Below are positions 10,228-64,000 of a stretch of 64,000 nt of DNA, in pieces. The notes below the pieces were generated by a model. That model had not been told where the DNA came from. It searched no databases and saw only the letters and a program-made list of their open reading frames with translations. The stretch lies in NCBI RefSeq assembly GCF_010550695.1, contig NZ_JAAGOB010000008.1, forward strand, positions 1 to 64,000. The letters run 5' to 3'. A program made the position numbers and the translations under genes. The DNA is from Phytoactinopolyspora alkaliphila. GTDB taxonomy: Bacteria > Actinomycetota > Actinomycetes > Jiangellales > Jiangellaceae. Position 1 is the first letter of the stretch, and every line of letters starts with the position of its first letter.

Positions 10228-10250
10228 CGGCAGACGGCCGCACATCACGT

Positions 10251-10366
10251 CGTCCTGACGCCTTGGAATCGTCCTGACCCGGTGTAGTCGCGCCAAACCG
10301 GGGCCGAGCTCCGTTTGGCGCGACTCCGAGGCGCCAGGACGAACAAAAGGCGTCAGGACGAACAAA
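10251..10366. repeat. Palindromic intergenic repeat, family III copy 1 (likely bidirectional terminator)
   Basis: A nested inverted structure between two convergent genes. Outer arms CGTCCTGACGCCTT (10251-10264) and AAGGCGTCAGGACG (10347-10360) are perfect complements. The inner hairpin AGTCGCGCCAAAC (10286-10298) pairs with GTTTGGCGCGACT (10313-10325). Within the right half CAGGACGAACAAA occurs twice (10335-10347 and 10354-10366). The motif CGTCCTGACGC and the CGCGACTCC core recur in copy 2 at 17096-17186, also between convergent genes. The inner hairpin would serve as a terminator for both flanking genes. Confidence 0.7.
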
Positions 10367-17095: not shown

Positions 17096-17186
17096 CGTCC
17101 TGACGCGATCGCATCGTCCTGACGCCCCACAGCCGCGCTTCCCGTGCTCCTCCGGGCCGGTGCCGCGACTCCATGGCGTCAGGACG
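17096..17186. repeat. Palindromic intergenic repeat, family III copy 2
   Basis: Between convergent genes ending at 17075 and 17270. It holds CGTCCTGACGC at 17096-17106 and CGTCCTGACGCC at 17115-17126, and the exact complement GGCGTCAGGACG at 17175-17186. The right half shares CGCGACTCC followed by a GGCGYCAGGACG unit with copy 1 at 10251-10366, so the two elements are related although diverged. It probably acts as a terminator between the TetR and MmcQ-like genes. Confidence 0.65.
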
Positions 17187-17269
17187 ACAGAAGCGCGCCA
17201 GGTGCCTGGCCTACGGCGCACCCGACGATCGCGCTCGGGCACTGCCGGGCTGAAGCGCCCGGGCCGGCC

Positions 17270-27769: not shown

Positions 27770-29593
27770 TCAGGCGCCGGCGCGTTCCAGCGGCTGATCC
27801 CCGGCTTCCTCGGTGGCGATCCGCAGCGCTGCCACCAGCTCCCGGTAAAGGTCGTCGGTGCGCAGCAACTCGTCGTGAGTGCCGACGGCTCGAACCCGGC
27901 CGCCGTCGAGGACGACGATCTGGTCGGCGTCCATGACCGTGGAAAGCCGGTGGGCGATGGTCACGACGGCGCCGCGTTCGGCCTGCCGGCGAATGCCCTC
28001 GGCGACGGCGGCCTCCGTGCGGCCGTCGAGCTGCGCCGTGACCTCGTCGAGGAGGAGCAGTTCGGGATCGGCGACGAGCGCACGGGCGAGAGCGAGCCGT
28101 TGCCGTTCCCCGCCGGAGAGCGTGGCGCCGGTGATCTCGGTCTGCAGACCAGCAGGAAGCGCCCGCACGCGCTCGTCCATGCGGACGACGGCGAGCGCCC
28201 GCCAGAGGTCGTCGTCGGCGGCGTCGGGCGAGGCATATGTGAGGTTCTCGGCCACGGTGCCGGGCACGAGGGGCGTGTCCTGTTCCACGTAGGCGATGCG
28301 ACCGCGCAGATCACCCAATGTCCACTCGTCGAGCGGGCGCCCGTCGAGGCGGATCTCGCCGTGCTCGGGACGATGAAACTTCAGCAGCAGAGAGAAGATG
28401 GTGGTCTTGCCCGCTCCGGAGGGGCCGACTATGGCCGTGTGCCCGTGCCGGGGAATGGTGACCGACACTCCGTCGAGCGCAGGTTCGGCGTCCGGCGCAT
28501 ATCTGAAGCGGACGTCGTCGAGCACCAGTGTCTCGGTAGCGTCTGCGCCGGTCCGGGCGTCCAGCGGACGGCTTGTGACGTCGTCGGCTTCCAGCCCCAT
28601 CCCGTTGATCTCGGCGATGCGCGCCGCGGCCGCCAGCCCGGACTGAATAGCCGTCATGCTCATGGTCAGCAGCATGACCGGCATCATGAGCTGGAAGGTG
28701 TAGAGCAGGAAGGCGATGAGGGCGCTCACCTCCAGTGCGCCCGTGGACACCCGCCAGGCACCGAAACCGAGCACCAGCATGATGGCGAGGTTGATTCCGC
28801 CGCCCGTGATGGTCCACGCCACTGCCTCGATCTTCACGGCGCGGATGCCCTTCAGCGAGGACCGCCGGGCGAAGTCGCTGATCCGTTGCGTCTCGCGCTC
28901 CTCGGCGCGGCTCGCTTTCACGGTGCGCAGTGCCCGGAGGATGCCTTCCAGCCGGCCACCCATCGACCCGACCTCGGCCTGGGCCTCCTGCTGTGCCTTG
29001 GCCAGGCTCGGCATGAGAAGTGCTGCCGCCACGCCGACGATCACGATGACGACGACAGTGGCCACCAGCAGCGGCAGATCGAGCACCGCCATGAGCACCA
29101 GTGCGCCCACCAAGCCGACGACACCGTTCACCCCGTTGACGATGCTGGATGTCGTGGCCTCGCGGATCAGCAGGGTGTCCGACGTGACCCGGGCGACCAT
29201 CTCCCCGCTCGGGCGGCTGGCCAGTTCCGGGATCCGCGCCCCGAGGAGGTGTCTGATCATCCCCGTGCGCGTGGCCAGGATGATCCGCTCCGCCAGCGTG
29301 CCCAGCATGATCGCCTGGATCAGCCCGACAACCGTTCCGGCCACCAGCAAGACGGCCAGCACCGTGACCGGCCCTCGAAGGGAGGCGGAGACGGCCAGGC
29401 CGTCGAGCACCGACTTCGTGACCATGGGGGTGGCCAGTTCGGCACCGGTGCCCAGGAGCCCAAGGAACACACCGAGAAAGAGCATCGAGCGGTGCGGGCG
29501 GGCGTAGGACCAGAGCAGCGCGATCTTGGATCGCATCGGCAGGTCGGGGGTCTCGCCGGCATCCGGCGTACTGGCGGGAATGGCGTAGGACAT
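27770..29593 (-). CDS. ABC exporter, fused permease-ATPase
   Basis: A 607-residue half-transporter from an ATG at 29593. Six membrane helices lie within residues about 25-330. The ATPase domain has Walker A GPSGAGKTT near 400, the ABC signature LSGGERQR near 500, Walker B LLLLDEVTAQLD and the IAHRLSTV H-loop. Architecture matches MsbA/LmrA-like exporters acting as homodimers. Its 3' end lies 11 bases beyond the paoC stop (convergent). The divergent TetR at 29721 is the likely regulator, and the exporter would be induced by the compound it pumps. Multidrug specificity is inferred. Confidence 0.9.
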   Translation of the reverse strand: MSYAIPASTPDAGETPDLPMRSKIALLWSYARPHRSMLFLGVFLGLLGTGAELATPMVTKSVLDGLAVSASLRGPVTVLAVLLVAGTVVGLIQAIMLGTLAERIILATRTGMIRHLLGARIPELASRPSGEMVARVTSDTLLIREATTSSIVNGVNGVVGLVGALVLMAVLDLPLLVATVVVIVIVGVAAALLMPSLAKAQQEAQAEVGSMGGRLEGILRALRTVKASRAEERETQRISDFARRSSLKGIRAVKIEAVAWTITGGGINLAIMLVLGFGAWRVSTGALEVSALIAFLLYTFQLMMPVMLLTMSMTAIQSGLAAAARIAEINGMGLEADDVTSRPLDARTGADATETLVLDDVRFRYAPDAEPALDGVSVTIPRHGHTAIVGPSGAGKTTIFSLLLKFHRPEHGEIRLDGRPLDEWTLGDLRGRIAYVEQDTPLVPGTVAENLTYASPDAADDDLWRALAVVRMDERVRALPAGLQTEITGATLSGGERQRLALARALVADPELLLLDEVTAQLDGRTEAAVAEGIRRQAERGAVVTIAHRLSTVMDADQIVVLDGGRVRAVGTHDELLRTDDLYRELVAALRIATEEAGDQPLERAGA

Positions 29594-29720
29594 GGCTGCT
29601 CTCTTCGGACTGATGCGACGATCCACGCATGCAACGTGTGATTGGCATAGTGACGCATTGCTGTCTCATTCTCAACCTTAGACGTCTTATACTGCGTCAT
29701 CCCTGGTAGACTCACGTGCC

Positions 29721-30302
29721 GTGACGCCGGAACCGCAGGACACTCCCGAGACAGGCGTGCGACAGCGAACCCGCCGAGCCATCGTCGACGCCGCCATTGG
29801 CGTCTGGGCCCGCGAGTTCAACGCGTCTCTGAGCGACATCGCCGAGCGCGCCAATGTCAGCAGGAGCACCCTGCACCGCTACTTTCCCGACAGAAAGACA
29901 CTGGTCGACGCCGCCCTGCGGGCATCCGTGGAGATCCTGACCGAGGAGTCGGAGAAGGCGACCGCTGGCTGCGAGACGGCCGCCGAGGAACTTGAAGCCC
30001 TCATGCGCGCCATGATCGATGTCGGTGACGCGATCATCTTCCTGTTCGCGGATCCGGACCGCTTCTCCGACAGTTCACATTGGCGCGAGGATGAGGACGA
30101 GGAACTGCCCGTTCTCATACAGCGCGCGCAGGCCGACGGTGCCTTGCGAGCCGACGTCGATCCCTCGTGGATTGTCGGCATCTTCTATTCGATCATCTAC
30201 GTGGCGGCAGAGTCGATCAACACCGGGCATATGGCCCGCCACCGAGCCGGCGACGTCGCGGTGCAGACGTTCCTGCACGGCCTGGCCGGCACCGGCAACT
30301 GA
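29721..30302 (+). CDS. TetR-family regulator of the ABC exporter
   Basis: A 193-residue regulator from a GTG at 29721, starting MTPEPQDTPETGVRQRTRRAIVD as translated in pieces. The HTH is at about residues 16-62, with ASLSDIAERANVSRSTLHRYFPDRKTL landmarks. The C-terminal domain is acidic with WREDEDEELPVL. It diverges from the exporter gene (127-base gap). Weak dyads occur in between (TGACGCA at 29651-29657 facing TGCGTCA at 29693-29699, and AGACGTCT near 29680-29687), which may be its operator. The ligand is not known. Confidence 0.85.
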   Translation: MTPEPQDTPETGVRQRTRRAIVDAAIGVWAREFNASLSDIAERANVSRSTLHRYFPDRKTLVDAALRASVEILTEESEKATAGCETAAEELEALMRAMIDVGDAIIFLFADPDRFSDSSHWREDEDEELPVLIQRAQADGALRADVDPSWIVGIFYSIIYVAAESINTGHMARHRAGDVAVQTFLHGLAGTGN

Positions 30303-30414
30303 CCACGCTCCACCGGCCGGCGCCGTGCGCCGGTGGCCGTGGCCGGCACCTCGTGGGTCGCCCGGTACGAAACTCGTTTCGCCTGGGCAGCCACGGTGTG
30401 GCACTCTGCTGATT

Positions 30415-31095
30415 ATGCTCGGCATCACCGATCTGTCCACCTACCTGGTGGGGCTTGCGCTCGTCATCCTCATGCCCGGACCCAACTCGCTCTATGTGCT
30501 GTCCGTGGCGGCTCGCCGTGGAACCCGTCCCGGCTATCAGGCCGCGGGCGGTGTGTTCTGCGGCGACACCGTCCTGATGGTGCTCTCCGCCGCCGGTGTG
30601 GCGTCGTTGCTGCAAGCCAGCGCGGCGGCGTTCTCCGTCGTGAAGTTCCTCGGCGCCGGGTACCTGACCTGGCTGGCCATCGGGATGCTGCGTGGCGCCT
30701 GGTCGGTGTGGCGTCGCCCCTCGGTGCCCGCGCGCGGCTCGGTCGCCGAGGCCTCCGTCGTCACTGCCGGCGACGCGTCCGCTCGCCCTGCAGAGCGTCC
30801 CTACCGCCGCGCGCTGGTGGCGAGCCTCCTCAACCCGAAGGCCATCCTGTTCTTCGTGGCGTTCTTCGTGCAGTTCGTCGACCCCACGTACCCCTACCCG
30901 GCCTTGTCTTTCCTCGTCCTGGGCGCCTGGGTGCAGCTTTTCAGCCTCACGTACCTGAGCATCCTGATCTTCAGCGGCGCGCGGCTCGCCTCGGCATTCC
31001 GCCGGCGACGACGCCTCCAGGCCGGTTCCCTGGCCACCGCGGGCGGCGCGTTCCTCGGCTTCGCGATCAAACTCTCGCTGGCCACCGCATCCTGA
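30415..31095 (+). CDS. LysE-family amino-acid exporter (LeuE-like)
   Basis: A 226-residue membrane protein from an ATG at 30415, starting MLGITDLSTYLVGLALVILMPGPN. The LMPGPNSLYVLS block at residues 19-30 is the LysE/RhtB signature. Six helices are predicted, and the ASLLNPKAILFFVAFFVQFV block (about 140-159) matches the family's second conserved NPK motif. These export amino acids such as leucine, homoserine or threonine. An arginine-rich loop at about 96-130 separates the halves. It ends 8 bases before the first family I repeat. Confidence 0.88.
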   Translation: MLGITDLSTYLVGLALVILMPGPNSLYVLSVAARRGTRPGYQAAGGVFCGDTVLMVLSAAGVASLLQASAAAFSVVKFLGAGYLTWLAIGMLRGAWSVWRRPSVPARGSVAEASVVTAGDASARPAERPYRRALVASLLNPKAILFFVAFFVQFVDPTYPYPALSFLVLGAWVQLFSLTYLSILIFSGARLASAFRRRRRLQAGSLATAGGAFLGFAIKLSLATAS

Positions 31096-31102
31096 CCCGA
31101 CG

Positions 31103-31170
31103 TAACCCATGCCATGGGTTAGGGTCGTTGAATTCGGATATTTCGGGCGCTGCAGCGACCCTAACCCATG
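31103..31170. repeat. Palindromic intergenic repeat, family I copy 1
   Basis: Main hairpin arms CATGGGTTAGGGTCG (31113-31127) and CGACCCTAACCCATG (31156-31170) are perfect complements, with a T-G pair and two more base pairs extending the stem inward. An additional palindrome TAACCCATGCCATGGGTTA sits at 31103-31121, so the TAACCCATG unit occurs three times. The loop contains AATTCGGATATTTC, shared with copy 2 at 32039-32096 in the same orientation. It lies between convergent LysE and metallo-hydrolase genes. Confidence 0.75.
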
Positions 31171-31202
31171 CGAAGGGCTCAGCTGTCGCTCAGCGGTATG
31201 AA

Positions 31203-31991
31203 TCACCCTTCGGCAGCGAGCGCAACGTTGGCGGCGTGTTCCTGAAGCAGCCAGCCCTCTGCGCCCACGAGCCGCTGGTCCTCGACAGGCTGCCCCTCCC
31301 GAACAGCTGCGATGTACCGGCGATCCGCTGCAATCCGGCGCCCCAGCTCAACCTGGTCGCCCACCGCACCATGGCCGGGGATCACGAGGTCGGCCCGCCC
31401 GGAGTCGAGGAGCTCCGCGAAGACGTCCAGTGCGGCGTCGTAATCGTCGAGCGGACGCTCGCCCATACGGTCAGGCAACGGGATCTCTGTATCGGAGAGC
31501 ATGTCTCCGGCAATGAGCACGTTTGCATCAGAGACAAGCAGGGCGGCATGGCCCGGGGCATGTGCCCGATGCTCGATGACCTCCACCTTCGGCCCTGCCC
31601 ACGCGATCGTGGTCGCACCCTCCTCGAGTGCCGTAACCCTCGCCATGGCGCTGACGTCCACCCCGGGGACAGAGTTCTGTGCGTGCATGACATTGCCCGC
31701 CTGATGCTCGACGGCGGTTCTGGCGCCGAGCGCCGTCGCGTAGCGGGGTGCGTCACCCAGCGAATCTCGCCACAGCATATGGTCCCAATGCGGGTGGGTG
31801 GAGAAGCCCACCGTGACGCGACGGCCCATCGTCGCGATCTCCGCCGCGACGACGTCGATCTCATCGGCCGTGACCGCAGGATCCACGATCAGGCATCCAC
31901 CGTCGCTGCCGAGTACGACGGTGGTGGTCGTGGTGCAGAACGAGTGCGTCGCCACGAGAACGCCGCCGGCCACCGGAACGAGGGCTCCCAT
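31203..31991 (-). CDS. Metallo-beta-lactamase-fold hydrolase
   Basis: A 262-residue protein from an ATG at 31991. The metallo-beta-lactamase signature THPHWDHMLWR near residue 65 gives the HxHxDH zinc motif, followed by HAPGHAALLV near 141, IAGDMLSD near 160 and VIPGHGAVG near 204, the remaining zinc ligands. The family covers lactonases, glyoxalase II and similar enzymes; no specific substrate is indicated. The gene is bracketed by two copies of the family I repeat in direct orientation, and is convergent with LysE downstream while the DeoR gene ends just upstream on the same strand. Confidence 0.85.
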   Translation of the reverse strand: MGALVPVAGGVLVATHSFCTTTTTVVLGSDGGCLIVDPAVTADEIDVVAAEIATMGRRVTVGFSTHPHWDHMLWRDSLGDAPRYATALGARTAVEHQAGNVMHAQNSVPGVDVSAMARVTALEEGATTIAWAGPKVEVIEHRAHAPGHAALLVSDANVLIAGDMLSDTEIPLPDRMGERPLDDYDAALDVFAELLDSGRADLVIPGHGAVGDQVELGRRIAADRRYIAAVREGQPVEDQRLVGAEGWLLQEHAANVALAAEG

Positions 31992-32038
31992 GCGACGCGA
32001 TCCTACAGATCGAGTCACGCCGGCCCAGCCACGCTTCG

Positions 32039-32096
32039 CATGGGTTACGGTCGCTGAATTCGGATATTTCCGGCGTCCCAGCGACCCTAACCCATG
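32039..32096. repeat. Palindromic intergenic repeat, family I copy 2
   Basis: A 58-bp element with left arm CATGGGTTACGGTCGCTG (32039-32056) and right arm CAGCGACCCTAACCCATG (32079-32096), one mismatch between them. It aligns end to end with copy 1 at 31113-31170 with 6 differences in 58 positions, and both copies have the loop AATTCGGATATTTC. The right arm includes the last codons and stop (TAG) of the DeoR gene. Confidence 0.75.
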
Positions 32097-32887
32097 CCAA
32101 GGTTTGGAGTGGGGGCGAGCACGAGGTCGACGCCGCGGTCGCGGAGGCCGTGTACGGCAGTGATCGGGAGACCGTCGTCGGTGATCACCCTGGCGAAATC
32201 CTCCAGCCAGGCGACCCGGTACAGGCTGAACGTGCCGTACTTCGAGCTCCCAGCAACGAGTACCGACGTCGAAGCGACGGACATGGCCGCTTGCTTGACC
32301 GCCACCTTGTCCTCCGAGGGAGTGGTGACACCTCGGGCCAGGTCCCAGGAGCTCGCGCTGACGAACGACACGTCGATACTCACCGCCCGCAAGGTGGCCG
32401 CGGCGAGCCGCCCGACGGCGGACCGGTTGCGGTGTTCCACCCGGCCGCCCACGTGGATCAGGTCCACGTCGGTGCCGACCAGCGCGTCGAGCGTGGTGAA
32501 GTCGTTGGTCAGCACGGTCAGGCCACGGAACGCCCGCAATAGCGGCGCCACATGGTGCAGCGTGGTGCCGGCGTCGAGGTAGATAGTCATGTCGTCGCGG
32601 ATCATCTCCGCAACGCAATTGGCCATTGCGGCTTTGTGGGCGCGCTCGGTCACCGATTTGTCGGCACGGCTCGGCTCGGTGCGCACACTGGCAATGCGCG
32701 CCCCGCCCGGAACGGAGAACACCCGGCCCTCGCGTTCCAGCGCCGCGATGTCTCGTCGTACCGTCATGTGGGACACGCCGAGCAGCTCGGTCAGCTGATG
32801 CACGCTCAGGACGGTCTGCTGCCGGAGCATCGCGACCAGCTGTTCACGCCGCTGGTCGGGGATCAGCGGCGGCTGGGTGGTGGACAT
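32087..32887 (-). CDS. DeoR/GlpR-family regulator of the otn genes
   Basis: A 266-residue regulator from an ATG at 32887. The N-terminal DeoR HTH (about 12-60) has LLGVSHMTVRRDIAALEREGRV, given here as the family's recognition block in part. The C-terminal sugar-phosphate sensor domain shows TIYLDAGTTLHHVAPLL near 101, LTVLTNDF near 122 and GGRVEHRN near 147. It diverges from otnK, matching the usual arrangement for repressors of sugar-acid catabolism, so the ligand may be a phosphorylated four-carbon acid. The final codons LGMG and the stop are supplied by the family I repeat. Confidence 0.88.
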   Translation of the reverse strand: MSTTQPPLIPDQRREQLVAMLRQQTVLSVHQLTELLGVSHMTVRRDIAALEREGRVFSVPGGARIASVRTEPSRADKSVTERAHKAAMANCVAEMIRDDMTIYLDAGTTLHHVAPLLRAFRGLTVLTNDFTTLDALVGTDVDLIHVGGRVEHRNRSAVGRLAAATLRAVSIDVSFVSASSWDLARGVTTPSEDKVAVKQAAMSVASTSVLVAGSSKYGTFSLYRVAWLEDFARVITDDGLPITAVHGLRDRGVDLVLAPTPNLGMG

Positions 32888-33005
32888 CGGTCACCTTCTC
32901 GCATCCAAACGCCGAGCGCCCTGGCCCGGCCTGCGCCCTGATCAGACGCTATGCTCTGCTCACACCACCGTCAAGTTTCTTCACATCGATTCACACGAGG
33001 TGTCT

Positions 33006-34256
33006 ATGACGCTCGGCGCAGTCGCCGACGACCTGACCGGCGCGATCGATCTCGCCACCAACCTCGCGGGGCGGGGCTTTCGAACCGTCGTCGCCATCGG
33101 TGTTCCCGCCGACGAGCCCGAGCCCGGCACCGACGCCATCGTCGCCGCGCTGAAGACCCGCTCCGTCGCCGCCGACGACGCGGTGGCCGAAAGCCTGAAC
33201 GCCGTCGACGCACTGGCCCGGTTGGGCTGCCGGCGCTACTACGTCAAGTATTGCTCCACGTTCGACTCCACTGCGGAGGGAAACATCGGCCCGGTGAGCG
33301 AGGCGATCTGTGACCGGCTGGGAGTGGACTCGGCCGTCGTCGTGCCGTCCTTCCCGGCCGCCGGCCGTACGGTCTACCAGGGCAGACTCTTCGTGCACGA
33401 CAAATTGCTGCACGAGAGCCACATGAAAGACCACCCGCTGAATCCGATGCGGGAGTCCGACGTCGTCAGCCTGCTCCGGCCGCAGACCAGGCATCCCGTG
33501 GGCGCGGTGCGGTACGAGCAGGTGCACGCCGGGCCGGACCGGATCCGCGCGGCACTCGACGCCGAGACCGCTGGCGGCGCCCGCCTGGTGGTGGTCGACG
33601 CCGTCACCAACGAGGACCTCGTCGCCATCGCGGCGGCCACCGAGAAGGACGCCGTCGTGACCGGCGGGTCAGGACTGGCCGCGGGCTTCATCGGACCACG
33701 CGCGGATGATCCTGACAGTGTCCGCTCCGGTGGCCGGGCCGCACCCCCACGCGCCGTGATCGTGGGCAGTGTCTCCGCCGCCAGCCAGGGCCAGGTCGAG
33801 CACGCCCGCGCGCATCTGCCGTTCCGCGAGCTTGACGTCACCGCCGCCAGGGATGATCTCGGCCGGCACGTGGAAGCCCTTGGTCAATGGGCGCAGAAGC
33901 AGTGGAACGACGAGCCGGAGCGGCCCGTCCTCATCTCCTCCGGCCAGGTGCGGGGCCACGATCCTGAACTGAGCCGCGTCGTCGAGCACGCCAACGCGGC
34001 GCTCGCCGTCGAGCTGGCTCGACGCGGCGCCCGGCAGTTCGTCATCGGCGGCGGCGAGACATCCGGGGCCGTCATCAACGCTCTGGGCATCCGTCAGCTC
34101 ACGATCGGCCGGGAGCTGGCGCCGGGGGTCGCGTGGGCCTCCGGTACCGCGCCTCGAGGCGGCCCGCCCGGCGAGGTCACGTACGACGTCATCCTCAAGT
34201 CCGGCAACTTCGGTGCGCCGGATCTGTTCACCGCGGCGTGGAAGGAACTCGCGTGA
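33006..34256 (+). CDS. otnK: 3-oxo-tetronate kinase (four-carbon acid sugar kinase)
   Basis: A 416-residue kinase from an ATG at 33006 with GAGGTG upstream. The GAVADDLTGAIDLA opening is the diagnostic N-terminal motif of DUF1537/OtnK kinases. Further landmarks are YYVKYCSTFDSTAEGNIG near 81, VVPSFPAAGRTVYQGRLF near 117, VTGGSGLA near 222 and GGGETSGAV near 346, the nucleotide-binding C-lobe. In the described pathway it phosphorylates 3-oxo-tetronate derived from erythronate or threonate. It is coupled to otnC by a GTGA overlap. The dehydrogenase (denD/ltnD) and isomerase (otnI) are not present in the window. Confidence 0.9.
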   Translation: MTLGAVADDLTGAIDLATNLAGRGFRTVVAIGVPADEPEPGTDAIVAALKTRSVAADDAVAESLNAVDALARLGCRRYYVKYCSTFDSTAEGNIGPVSEAICDRLGVDSAVVVPSFPAAGRTVYQGRLFVHDKLLHESHMKDHPLNPMRESDVVSLLRPQTRHPVGAVRYEQVHAGPDRIRAALDAETAGGARLVVVDAVTNEDLVAIAAATEKDAVVTGGSGLAAGFIGPRADDPDSVRSGGRAAPPRAVIVGSVSAASQGQVEHARAHLPFRELDVTAARDDLGRHVEALGQWAQKQWNDEPERPVLISSGQVRGHDPELSRVVEHANAALAVELARRGARQFVIGGGETSGAVINALGIRQLTIGRELAPGVAWASGTAPRGGPPGEVTYDVILKSGNFGAPDLFTAAWKELA

Positions 34257-50809: not shown

Positions 50810-50869
50810 CCCCATGATCATTGGCGTGTCCCCACACCATGAGGTAGCCGACCGCCAATGATCATGGGG
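50810..50869. repeat. Palindromic intergenic repeat, family II copy 1
   Basis: A 60-bp element with perfect 17-bp arms: CCCCATGATCATTGGCG (50810-50826) and CGCCAATGATCATGGGG (50853-50869). The loop of 26 bases is not conserved. Equivalent elements occur at 56028-56087 and 63194-63253. It lies between convergent dcp and TetR genes; the TetR stop codon (TGA, 50862-50864 in complement) and last codon Pro derive from it. Could act as a terminator. Confidence 0.75.
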
Positions 50870-51425
50870 AGGGGGGATCGTAGCGGCTGATGAACAGTTC
50901 CATGGCGTCGTCGGCTGCGGCACGGTCTCCGGTGGCCAGCAGGTCGAGCAGCAGGCCCCGGGCCACGGCCAGCCCCAGCCTGGCGTGGACACGGGCATCC
51001 TCGACGGTGAAGCCGGCTCGCGCCAGGGACGCGGCAAGGGGCTCTATCCACGGATCGATGAGACCGTCCAGGATGGCCGCGGCTCCAGGATCGCCCTGAA
51101 CGGCACGGCCGTACATCTCGAAGAACAACCGTTCATGCGGCCACAGGTCGGGATGGGCCAGGCGCCGCCAGAACGCGCGCGCCACCTCGGCCGGTGCGGC
51201 GTCGTCGTCGGCCAGTTCGTCGAAGACCGCCCGCTGCTGCGACTCCATCGCCCGGACCACTTCGGTGAGCAGTCCTTCCTTGGAGCCGAAGTGGTAGATG
51301 AGCATCCGGTGGCTGGTGCCCAATGCCGACGCGATCTCACGCAGACTGCGCTCCCGGATGCCGTGCTGGGCCACGTATTCGATCGCCGCGACGAGCAGAC
51401 GGTCACGGGCGACACCCTGCTTCAT
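50862..51425 (-). CDS. TetR-family regulator
   Basis: A 187-residue regulator from an ATG at 51425. The HTH spans about residues 8-52 (LLVAAIEYVAQHGIRERSLREIASALGTSHRMLIYHFGSKEGL as landmarks RSLREIAS and MLIYHFGSKEGLL). The C-terminal domain has helices with WRRLAHPDLWPHERLFFEMYG, the TetR_C group often seen near SRPBCC or aromatic-resistance genes. Its gene ends inside the family II repeat. It diverges from the SRPBCC gene with a perfect operator between (51433-51448). Confidence 0.86.
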   Translation of the reverse strand: MKQGVARDRLLVAAIEYVAQHGIRERSLREIASALGTSHRMLIYHFGSKEGLLTEVVRAMESQQRAVFDELADDDAAPAEVARAFWRRLAHPDLWPHERLFFEMYGRAVQGDPGAAAILDGLIDPWIEPLAASLARAGFTVEDARVHARLGLAVARGLLLDLLATGDRAAADDAMELFISRYDPPSP

Positions 51426-56027: not shown

Positions 56028-56087
56028 CTCCATGATCATCGATGATTCGTCGCGCTCGGACCCGTCGAATCATCGATGATCATGGGG
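56028..56087. repeat. Palindromic intergenic repeat, family II copy 2
   Basis: A 60-bp element with perfect 20-bp arms: CCATGATCATCGATGATTCG (56030-56049) and its complement at 56066-56085; flanking CT/GG extend it to 56028-56087. It shares the outer CCATGATCAT core and the total length with copies 1 and 3. It lies 25 bases after the formamidase stop and may terminate that operon; it may also supply the GGGGAG for the following start. Confidence 0.75.
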
Positions 56088-56097
56088 AGAGCCTAGG

Positions 56098-62483: not shown

Positions 62484-63245
62484 ATGATCTTGGGAGCAGG
62501 CACGACGCGAGCGGTGTTCTTCGACTCCGGAGGCACCCTGGCCACGCCCACCCACGCGAGCTGGTGGCCGAAGCCCCGCTTCGCGGAGCTGGTGACCGCA
62601 GCCGGGCTTTCCACGCCGGCGGACGACGACGCCTCTCGCGCGGCGCTTGCGGCTGGCACCGCGTATCTGGCCGAACGCTGGAGGGTGACGACTCTGGAGG
62701 AGGAGCACGGCGTCTATGTCGGGTTCTATGACGTCGTGCTCCGCCGCCTCTACGGCGTTGCCCCGGCCGAACTCCTTCGAGCGCTGGCCGACGCGGCTGT
62801 CTACGAGCTGGACCAGGAGCCGTACGCCGACACGATGCTGGTACTCGACGGGCTGGCCGAGGCCGGTGTACGGCTCGGCGTGATCACCAATGCGGGTCCA
62901 TCGATCGAGCTGCGGCACCGCGACATGGGACTGCGGGACTATTTCGAGCCGTTCGTGATCTCCGCCGTCGTGGGCCACGAGAAGCCTGGTGCCCGGATCT
63001 ACCAGATCGCCCTCGAACAAGCGTCACTCGCTCCGTCTGATGTGGCCTTCGTCGACGACGTCGCCGAGAACGTGCGGACCGCGCTGGACCTCGGAATGCA
63101 GGCGTTCCTCATCGACCGTACCGGCCACGCCGCGGGAGATCAGCCCGGCGGTGGACATTCCCTGCCCACCATGACCGCCCTCGACGAACTCCTCTCCATG
63201 ATCATTGGAGATCCCGCACAGCCCCGGGTGGCGGATTTTCAATGA
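62484..63245 (+). CDS. HAD-family hydrolase
   Basis: A 253-residue protein from an ATG at 62484, 44 bases after the ATPase stop. HAD motifs: FFDSGGTLATPT near 11 (motif I, DxG in place of DxD), TNAG near 137 (motif II), and VVGHEKPGARIY and FVDDVAENVRTA near 164-200 (motifs III and IV). The first motif FFDSGGT differs from the usual FDxDGT. Substrate possibly a sugar phosphate given the neighbouring importer. The last 15 residues and the stop are supplied by the family II repeat. Confidence 0.85.
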   Translation: MILGAGTTRAVFFDSGGTLATPTHASWWPKPRFAELVTAAGLSTPADDDASRAALAAGTAYLAERWRVTTLEEEHGVYVGFYDVVLRRLYGVAPAELLRALADAAVYELDQEPYADTMLVLDGLAEAGVRLGVITNAGPSIELRHRDMGLRDYFEPFVISAVVGHEKPGARIYQIALEQASLAPSDVAFVDDVAENVRTALDLGMQAFLIDRTGHAAGDQPGGGHSLPTMTALDELLSMIIGDPAQPRVADFQ

Positions 63246-63255
63246 CCATGGGGAG
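63192..63255. repeat. Palindromic repeat, family II copy 3, overlapping HAD and PHP genes
   Basis: Left arm CTCTCCATGATCATTG (63192-63207) and right arm CAATGACCATGGGGAG (63240-63255) are complementary with two mismatches. The core 63194-63253 is 60 bases as in copies 1 and 2. The HAD stop (TGA 63243-63245) and the ATG of the following gene (63242) both lie in the right arm, so this copy is translated. Confidence 0.65.
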
Positions 63256-64000
63256 GCGCGTCACCCGCACTCTGACGCCCGAGGACCGGGCGGTGTCCCC
63301 GTACCTGGAGATACCGTTCGAGGTGGCTCCTGGCACACCGTCGATCGAGGTCCGGCTGACGTTCGACCGGGACCGCGGCGTCGTAGACCTCGGTTGCGCA
63401 GGCGCGGGGGCGTTCCGAGGCTGGTCCGGAGGGGCTCGGTCACGCTTCGTGATCGGCGCCGACGCCGCCACGCCCGGATACCTGCCCGGCGAGCTGGAGC
63501 CGGGCCGCTGGGCCGTGGTGCTGGGCCTGCACCGGATCCCGGCCGACGGCCTGGACGTCGTCGTCGAGATCGACACGCCCGCATCCGGACCAGCGGAGAT
63601 CGAGCCTCCTCCCCCGCCGCGCCCGCAGCGCCGGCCCCGCCGCCGGCTACCGTCGGATGCCGGCTTCACCTGGGTGGCAGGCGACTTCCACGCGCACACC
63701 GTACACTCCGACGGCACGCTGGGCCGGGCACAGCTTGCCGCCCTGGCGGTCGAGGAAGGTCTCGACGTCCTGGCCGTCACGGACCACAACACGGTCAGCC
63801 ACCACGCCGGGCTGGGCGCGATCGGTGACCAGTACGGCGTCACACTGGTGCCCGGGCAGGAGGTGACCACCGATCGCGGCCACGCGAACGCGTTCGGCGC
63901 CGTCCGCTGGGTGGACTTCCGCCAGCACCCTGACGCATGGGTGTCTCAGGTGGCCGACGACGGTGGCCTGCTGTCGGTCAACCACCCCCTGGCCGCCGAC
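63242..64000 (+). CDS. PHP-domain metallohydrolase (CehA/McbA-like), 3' end off the window
   Basis: 253 codons read from an ATG at 63242 to the window edge without stop, so the C-terminus is missing. A 140-residue N-terminal beta-rich domain (TLTPEDRAVSPYLEIPF, VVLGLHRIPADGLDVVVEID) is followed by the PHP metal motif DFHAHTVHSDGTLGRAQLA near 150 and VTDHNTVSHHAG near 180, giving HxH and DH metal ligands. The CehA/McbA group hydrolyses carbamate or phosphoesters, but substrate is unknown. It starts in the family II repeat and overlaps the HAD stop by 4 bases, consistent with the transporter operon continuing. An ATG at 63248 is an alternative. Confidence 0.85.
   Translation, partial: MTMGRRVTRTLTPEDRAVSPYLEIPFEVAPGTPSIEVRLTFDRDRGVVDLGCAGAGAFRGWSGGARSRFVIGADAATPGYLPGELEPGRWAVVLGLHRIPADGLDVVVEIDTPASGPAEIEPPPPPRPQRRPRRRLPSDAGFTWVAGDFHAHTVHSDGTLGRAQLAALAVEEGLDVLAVTDHNTVSHHAGLGAIGDQYGVTLVPGQEVTTDRGHANAFGAVRWVDFRQHPDAWVSQVADDGGLLSVNHPLAAD

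Follow-up and report, generated by a model that had tools for sequence, protein, structure and literature searches.

The window analysed here, bases 1-64000 of one contig in the 5.5-Mb draft genome of Phytoactinopolyspora alkaliphila, contains two palindromic elements placed on either side of a gene for a metallo-beta-lactamase-fold hydrolase (Table 1). Direct reading of both 58-bp cores reproduced the coordinates and the identity given in a preliminary description of this DNA: the cores differ at 6 of 58 positions (52 identical), have the same orientation and leave a single gene between them. A repeat search found the copies to be 89% identical over 64 nt and 926 bp apart. The arms of the elements base-pair along 23-25 nt and leave a 22-nt loop, in agreement with the loop and complementary arms described before, and the loop pattern (three mismatches or fewer) occurs twice in the window, where shuffles predict 0.21 matches. 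The elements lie where they had been placed, but 58 bp is too short for the unit, which measures ~76 nt and includes copy-specific complementary flanks. Likewise, one gene is indeed enclosed, but copy 2 also reaches into the 3' end of the DeoR-type gene. The gene upstream of copy 1 is taken, from its sequence, to encode a LysE/RhtB-like transporter. A search of Rfam with window positions 29000-34000 returned matches only far below the gathering scores.

Table 1 Palindromic elements and neighbouring genes, in window positions
Feature	Position	Strand	Details
Palindromic element copy 1	31104..31177	+	core 31113-31170; loop AATTCGGATATTTCGGGCG; R2 model 31110-31173
Palindromic element copy 2	32034..32105	+	core 32039-32096; R2 model 32036-32099
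Metallo-beta-lactamase-fold hydrolase gene	31203..31991	-	between both copies; Pfam PF00753, E 2e-15
DeoR-type regulator gene	32087..32887	-	PF00455, E 4.7e-43; stop codon inside element copy 2
Gene upstream of copy 1	30415..31095	+	3' end 8 nt before copy 1

A dispersed family in the P. alkaliphila genome

A BLASTN search of the P. alkaliphila genome gave 62 matches at E ≤ 10, a count that can include each palindrome once per strand. With a covariance model built from 32 full copies (R1), which likewise matches both strands, the family was found at no fewer than 45 distinct places, on many contigs. Copy 1 (88% to the family consensus over 74 nt) and copy 2 match this model with E 7.5e-19 and 1.3e-18, respectively. 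The 32 full copies align nearly gap-free over 76 nt (one column was added by the aligner), with the consensus AACCCCTGGCATGGGTT-RN-GGTCG-YTRRAAW-CGGACATTTCGGGCG-CNNTAR-CGACC-NY-AACCCATGCCAGGGGTT, in which the arms are nearly invariant and the asymmetric core CGGACATTTCGGGCG is conserved. Across the element, pairing exceeds permutation in two stretches only: at the outer edge (positions 1-6) with z 3.5, and in the first six flank positions, which pair flank-to-flank with z 2.9 (7 of 2000 permutations as high). The complementary flanks are thus specific to each copy. Inspection by eye gave no target-site duplication, the flanks being copy-specific inverted rather than direct repeats. A BIME-like fold with two small hairpins, one per arm, was rejected, with pairing between flank and inner arm at the permuted level (z 0.1 and 0.4).

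None of 36 copies lies inside a gene called by a codon-usage gene caller made for this analysis; the neighbouring genes are convergent for 17 copies, tandem for 16 and divergent for 3. The copies are scattered and not arrayed, as opposed to an integron attC array or gene cassette, which was considered for the bracketed single gene. The earlier likening to REP/BIME-type non-autonomous repeats is borne out by elements that are dispersed, extragenic, palindromic, biased towards 3' ends and missing at orthologous sites of sister species. An exact composite pattern had 0 matches in the sampled genome contigs, among which the P. alkaliphila genome was perhaps not included. Separated half-element pairs were not seen among the BLASTN and covariance matches, one isolated half excepted. 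This half (G000:C12:91854; L057 ~2049) is the self-palindromic CGACCATAACCCCTGGCATGGGTTGTGGTCG and resembles a REP singlet.

At least one pair less than 1 kb apart is expected with P = 0.33 among 48 randomly placed copies, and the metallo-hydrolase gene is mildly atypical only (GC3 rank 4 and codon score rank 8 among 63 called genes). The idea that this gene was acquired with the elements, as their cargo, is unsupported on both counts. The bracket may be a chance close pair of copies, and the gene is most likely an ordinary neighbour outside the repeat system.

Sister species and a bracketed AbiEi-DUF559 gene

With the P. alkaliphila element as query, BLASTN gave nothing at E ≤ 0.001 among 59 relatives. 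Orthologous sites were compared using the genes beside ten copies as query; seven sites were comparable, in up to four sister genomes, and the element is missing from 21 of 21 sister intergenic stretches compared (L118 and L119 not among them). At one of the P. alkaliphila sites, presumably between cydA and cydB, the sister stretches are likewise without the element. On this sequence comparison, the family entered the genome recently or turns over fast, and is not an ancestral terminator. At the site of one copy (L143), the genomes G003 and G004 (L133, L136) were seen by eye to carry other, species-specific palindromes; three species hold three different palindromes at one orthologous intergenic site, as if it were a preferred target.

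When applied to sister genomes, the R1 model retrieved palindromes with different arms, several of which share the core. A 64-nt model (R2) was built from 13 elements of three genomes. Both sides vary in 12 of the 16 arm pairs of its alignment, and 0 of 500 shuffles reach the covariation score. The sampled bacterial family, Jiangellaceae, comprises 22 genomes including Phytoactinopolyspora and Jiangella; R2 matches occur in 20 of these at E ≤ 0.01, nearly all of them 64 or 65 nt in length, with some of 86. At E ≤ 1e-5, matches are confined to 18 of the 246 genomes of the class, i.e. 17/22 Jiangellaceae and 1/224 outside. The single outside match is L194 (G087:C196:7181-7243), with E 5.3e-8, which may reflect transfer or chance. 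A looser scan of the sampled stretches for the core motif was discarded as it gave mostly chance matches.

A RAYT-like partner had been proposed for the repeats, but the RAYT transposase domain (PF01797) has 0 matches in 5/5 genomes of the genus, that of P. alkaliphila included, with 5 of 14 controls positive. Another kind of gene emerged as the partner. Homologous genes in G009 and G018 are each enclosed by two R2 elements that lie ~1.1 kb apart in the same orientation, and the products of these genes match AbiEi_4 (E 1.1e-7 and 5.6e-6); one of the two also has a C-terminal DUF559 match (E 5.6e-4) just under the cut-off. The G018 protein as query yielded 79 matches at E ≤ 1e-15 in 21/22 Jiangellaceae genomes. 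We define the 14 closest (E ≤ 1e-34) as the close subfamily, using a cut that was chosen after viewing the list and just includes a gene remnant of P. alkaliphila (next match 2.8e-34). R2 elements are present in the fetched stretch at 11 of these 14 loci, on both sides in 6, versus 0/16 other paralog loci with an R2 element at E < 0.1 (Fisher 7e-6).

The close-subfamily gene occurs about once per genome, with two in G012. Its P. alkaliphila remnant retains ~115 residues from the C-terminal half (DUF559 score 22.7 bits, cut-off 20.6) and is enclosed by the element copies C12:619571 and C12:620302. P. alkaliphila thus carries both the repeat family of the window and, in broken form, its partner gene; with only this truncated remnant left, the family is probably no longer active there. 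Gene and repeat do not always coincide: G010 has 22 R2 matches (both strands counted) and no close-subfamily gene, and G005 has the gene and no R2 match. The comparison of R2 match counts between genomes with and without the gene (Mann-Whitney p 0.02) carries little weight because R2 was built from the genus itself and both strands were counted. Among the neighbourhoods of the 14 close loci, G001-G005 share one (G002 by one side only), G012, G013 and G018 have another in common, and G012, G015, G019 and G021 a third; the neighbours of the G009 locus and of the P. alkaliphila remnant are common to no other locus at E ≤ 1e-10. Within genus groups, the gene thus stays at a fixed locus, and it is the repeats that would move.

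Palindromes of other gene lineages

Of the 79 loci matched, 70 were fetched and, with one flank too short, 69 were scored for a repeat shared between the 420-bp left and right flanks at a score >28. Mismatched flanks served as the null (mean 14.7, 99th percentile 27, maximum 44 in 1500). Flank pairs were detected at 28/69 AbiEi-DUF559 loci versus 2/180 control genes (Fisher 6e-16). The controls had been 181 ordinary genes from the window and 20 sampled stretches, of which three exceeded 28. One of these (L097) proved to be an AbiEi-DUF559 gene itself and was taken out; the two still counted are the metallo-hydrolase gene of the window and L108, an FAD oxidoreductase gene with a non-palindromic match. 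The pairs are distributed over 19/22 loci of the genus, 3/35 of Jiangella and 6/12 of the rest, and the 41/69 loci that have none are chiefly from Jiangella (32/35).

Outside Jiangellaceae, 4/8 loci have a flank pair (a Rhodococcus MAG, an Actinomycetales MAG, Aldersonia and a Williamsia MAG); Tessaracoccus is borderline and three have none. Combining these four with the 28 gives 32 pairs for analysis. By a shuffle test 23/32 are palindromic and 9/32 not clearly so, and the direct match is the better one in 24/32, with the inverted match equal or better in 8/32. The sequences compared show palindromes that differ between gene lineages, most lineages having a palindrome of their own.

If the pairing is general, a genome should contain, for each of its AbiEi-DUF559 genes, a repeat family whose sequence can be read from the gene flanks; this held twice and weakly once. 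In P. limicola (G004), the flank palindrome of an unrelated paralog gave 80 matches of 69-70 nt, and with 40 of 59 candidates scored these represent 40 or more places. The flank palindrome of the Rhodococcus MAG occupies two gene-flanking and 4 further places. That of Aldersonia has 1 further place only, a weak dispersal. When flank elements were ranked against the dispersed elements by likeness, they were the most similar to those of their own genome in 4/8 genomes, with rank 3 in two genomes, 6 in G012 with its two gene lineages, and 10/13 in G004. In this last genome, the similarity among dispersed copies of the L264 palindrome (L286-L294) resumes ~20 nt beyond the 70-nt unit, in partly complementary sequence, so that the complete element probably measures close to 110 nt.

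The partner protein and possible roles of the palindromes

An AlphaFold2 model of the P. limicola protein, calculated with 13 relatives in the alignment, has a mean pLDDT of 90.8. Foldseek searches with this model found AbiEi of S. agalactiae (E 4e-5) and Rv2827c (E 4e-4), and for the C-terminal part a weak match to the homing endonuclease I-Bth0305I (E 0.12). VIA-align superposed AbiEi (6y8q) on model residues 3-193 (Z 11.9, 171 residues), and I-Bth0305I (3r3p, Z 11.9) and Vsr (1cw0, Z 9.8) on residues ~196-308; a TnsA row with Z 6.0 was too low to use. The PADLOC models for AbiEi also match (E 9.8e-11), and none of the 4 proteins tested has a match in NCBIfam. E208, E212, D243, E254, D256 and K260 (L219 numbering) are invariant in 20 diverse paralogs, giving the nuclease part a conserved motif of invariant E, D and E-x-D-G-x-x-K-Y, as would be expected for a PD-(D/E)XK-type site. 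The protein is hence predicted to combine an N-terminal AbiEi-type winged helix with a C-terminal Vsr/I-Bth0305I-like putative nuclease (DUF559) in one chain.

Scattered palindromes and the AbiEi-DUF559 gene, associated in the architecture and distribution described above, suggest a repeat-enzyme pairing that is as yet undescribed and may serve to spread or maintain the repeats. We consider it somewhat probable (about 0.55) that the ~64-76-nt palindromes spread as non-autonomous elements in a REPIN-like manner, with the AbiEi-DUF559 protein rather than a RAYT as partner. The protein would bind its own palindrome, beside its gene and elsewhere, the nuclease would nick or cut the palindrome in its hairpin or cruciform form, and the element would then be copied to new extragenic places by repair or replication. 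Palindrome binding, cleavage and a causal part of the nuclease in mobilisation are what we infer from the association, and these sequence data did not capture any event of binding, cleavage, excision or insertion.

According to excerpts of PMC3985639, S. agalactiae AbiEi represses its own promoter by binding an inverted repeat (11 bp-N27-11 bp). Such binding is compatible with an N-terminal half that recognises the palindrome; it also lends itself to an alternative in which the palindromes are operators, the dispersed copies form a regulon or decoys of AbiEi-type regulators and the nuclease domain acts elsewhere. An element copy close beside most close-subfamily genes would suit such operators as well. 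We nevertheless regard this alternative as unlikely, given the second copy across the gene at many loci, in the same orientation in 24/32, and dispersed copies that mostly follow the 3' ends of genes in convergent or tandem arrangement, where operators are unexpected (only 3/36 lie between divergent genes).

Non-autonomous palindromic elements usually rely on a transposon elsewhere in the genome. The elements might accordingly be MITEs of some other transposase, with AbiEi-DUF559 genes as frequent neighbours or as cargo, e.g. a defence gene, in line with the PADLOC matches to defence-related AbiEi proteins. The flank test makes this improbable, as the palindromes differ per gene lineage, in several genera and also outside Jiangellaceae, while among the 180 controls only the metallo-hydrolase locus and one non-palindromic chance match scored. 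Furthermore, no longer element with the same ends is present among the P. alkaliphila BLASTN and covariance matches listed.

That copies are extragenic, lie near stop codons and are depleted between divergent genes would also agree with transcription terminators or 3'-end mRNA stabilisers that are immobile and kept alike by gene conversion, and the copy-specific complementary flanks (z 2.9 and 3.5) lengthen the stem. However, loop and arms are conserved in sequence beyond what pairing alone would require, the family is absent from orthologous sister sites and brackets nuclease genes, and one copy separates the presumed cydA and cydB, all of which leaves such a role with a low probability. Finally, a local duplication around the metallo-hydrolase gene, which the closeness and likeness of the two copies (926 bp, 89%) would suggest and which had been the outcome foreseen if copies were absent elsewhere, is refuted by the 62 BLASTN matches and the many family places, and has practically no probability left.

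Comparison with known repeat systems

The proposed spread of palindromes by an AbiEi-DUF559 partner can be compared with several known systems. Excerpts of PMC3116915 describe REPINs as dispersed extragenic imperfect palindromes whose inverted arms enclose a spacer and whose neighbouring genes are mostly convergent or tandem, and as several unrelated families per genome, each beside its own single non-mobile gene. The present palindromes are similarly dispersed and extragenic, and here too a single-copy non-mobile gene, AbiEi-DUF559, sits beside its own repeats (cf. the same part of PMC3116915). In contrast to REP/REPIN-RAYT systems, no Y1/HUH transposase match exists in the genus and the bracketed gene is AbiEi-DUF559. 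The elements are also longer, at 64-76 nt, and have a conserved spacer, and inspection by eye of the 32-copy column composition revealed no GTAG/GGAG tag at the hairpin foot. The system works like REP/REPIN but lacks what defines that system, the RAYT.

CGTC REPs, as covered in sections of a 2013 survey (PMC3733652), are short dispersed palindromes apparently without a dedicated transposase. They resemble the present elements in this respect, but CGTC-tagged REPs are known mainly from other phyla.

MITEs (e.g. ERIC, Correia and nemis) are small, non-autonomous and fixed in length, and have inverted ends. The present elements share all of these properties, but neither a parent transposon nor a target-site duplication was found for them.

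The folds of the two protein halves are those of AbiEi antitoxins/Rv2827c and of the Vsr-like I-Bth0305I. The AbiEi winged-helix fold of the AbiE type IV toxin-antitoxin system is common to the N-terminal half, and the PD-(D/E)XK-like fold and conserved acidic residues of Vsr/EDxHD-type nucleases recur in the predicted nuclease half. AbiEi-DUF559 differs from both in having the two folds in one chain, and the portions of the literature consulted describe no comparable repeat association for AbiEi/Rv2827c or I-Bth0305I. Within open-licence PubMed Central, no literature linking DUF559 or AbiEi to REP-like repeats was found.

Dispersed palindromes are common in bacteria, and a dedicated enzyme is tied to the RAYT-linked class. 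It is conceivable, at a little under even odds, that AbiEi-DUF559 proteins constitute an undescribed class of repeat-spreading nucleases, independent of RAYTs in origin, in which each lineage has a cognate palindrome family. Each lineage would then keep two palindrome copies around its gene and disperse others over the chromosome, and relatives of the nuclease could be the missing enzyme of orphan palindromes such as CGTC REPs. If a second, structurally unrelated enzyme class were bracketed by palindromes of its own, pairs of repeat and enzyme would have to have arisen more than once. Such a class would also give a role to DUF559, a nuclease family of 'unknown function', here joined to an antitoxin-like domain.

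Two further palindromic repeats were observed in the window. A second family (CCATGATCAT ... ATGATCATGGGGAG) is located at positions 50812-50872, 56030-56090 and 63196-63256 and has relatives in the sister-genome samples; some of the sister copies carry GTTTTCTCGTGC, which also flanks the AbiEi-type genes L226, L221, L250 and L218. A third repeat (CGTCCTGACGC ... GCGTCAGGACG) is present in two copies, at 10250-10361 and 17096-17202.
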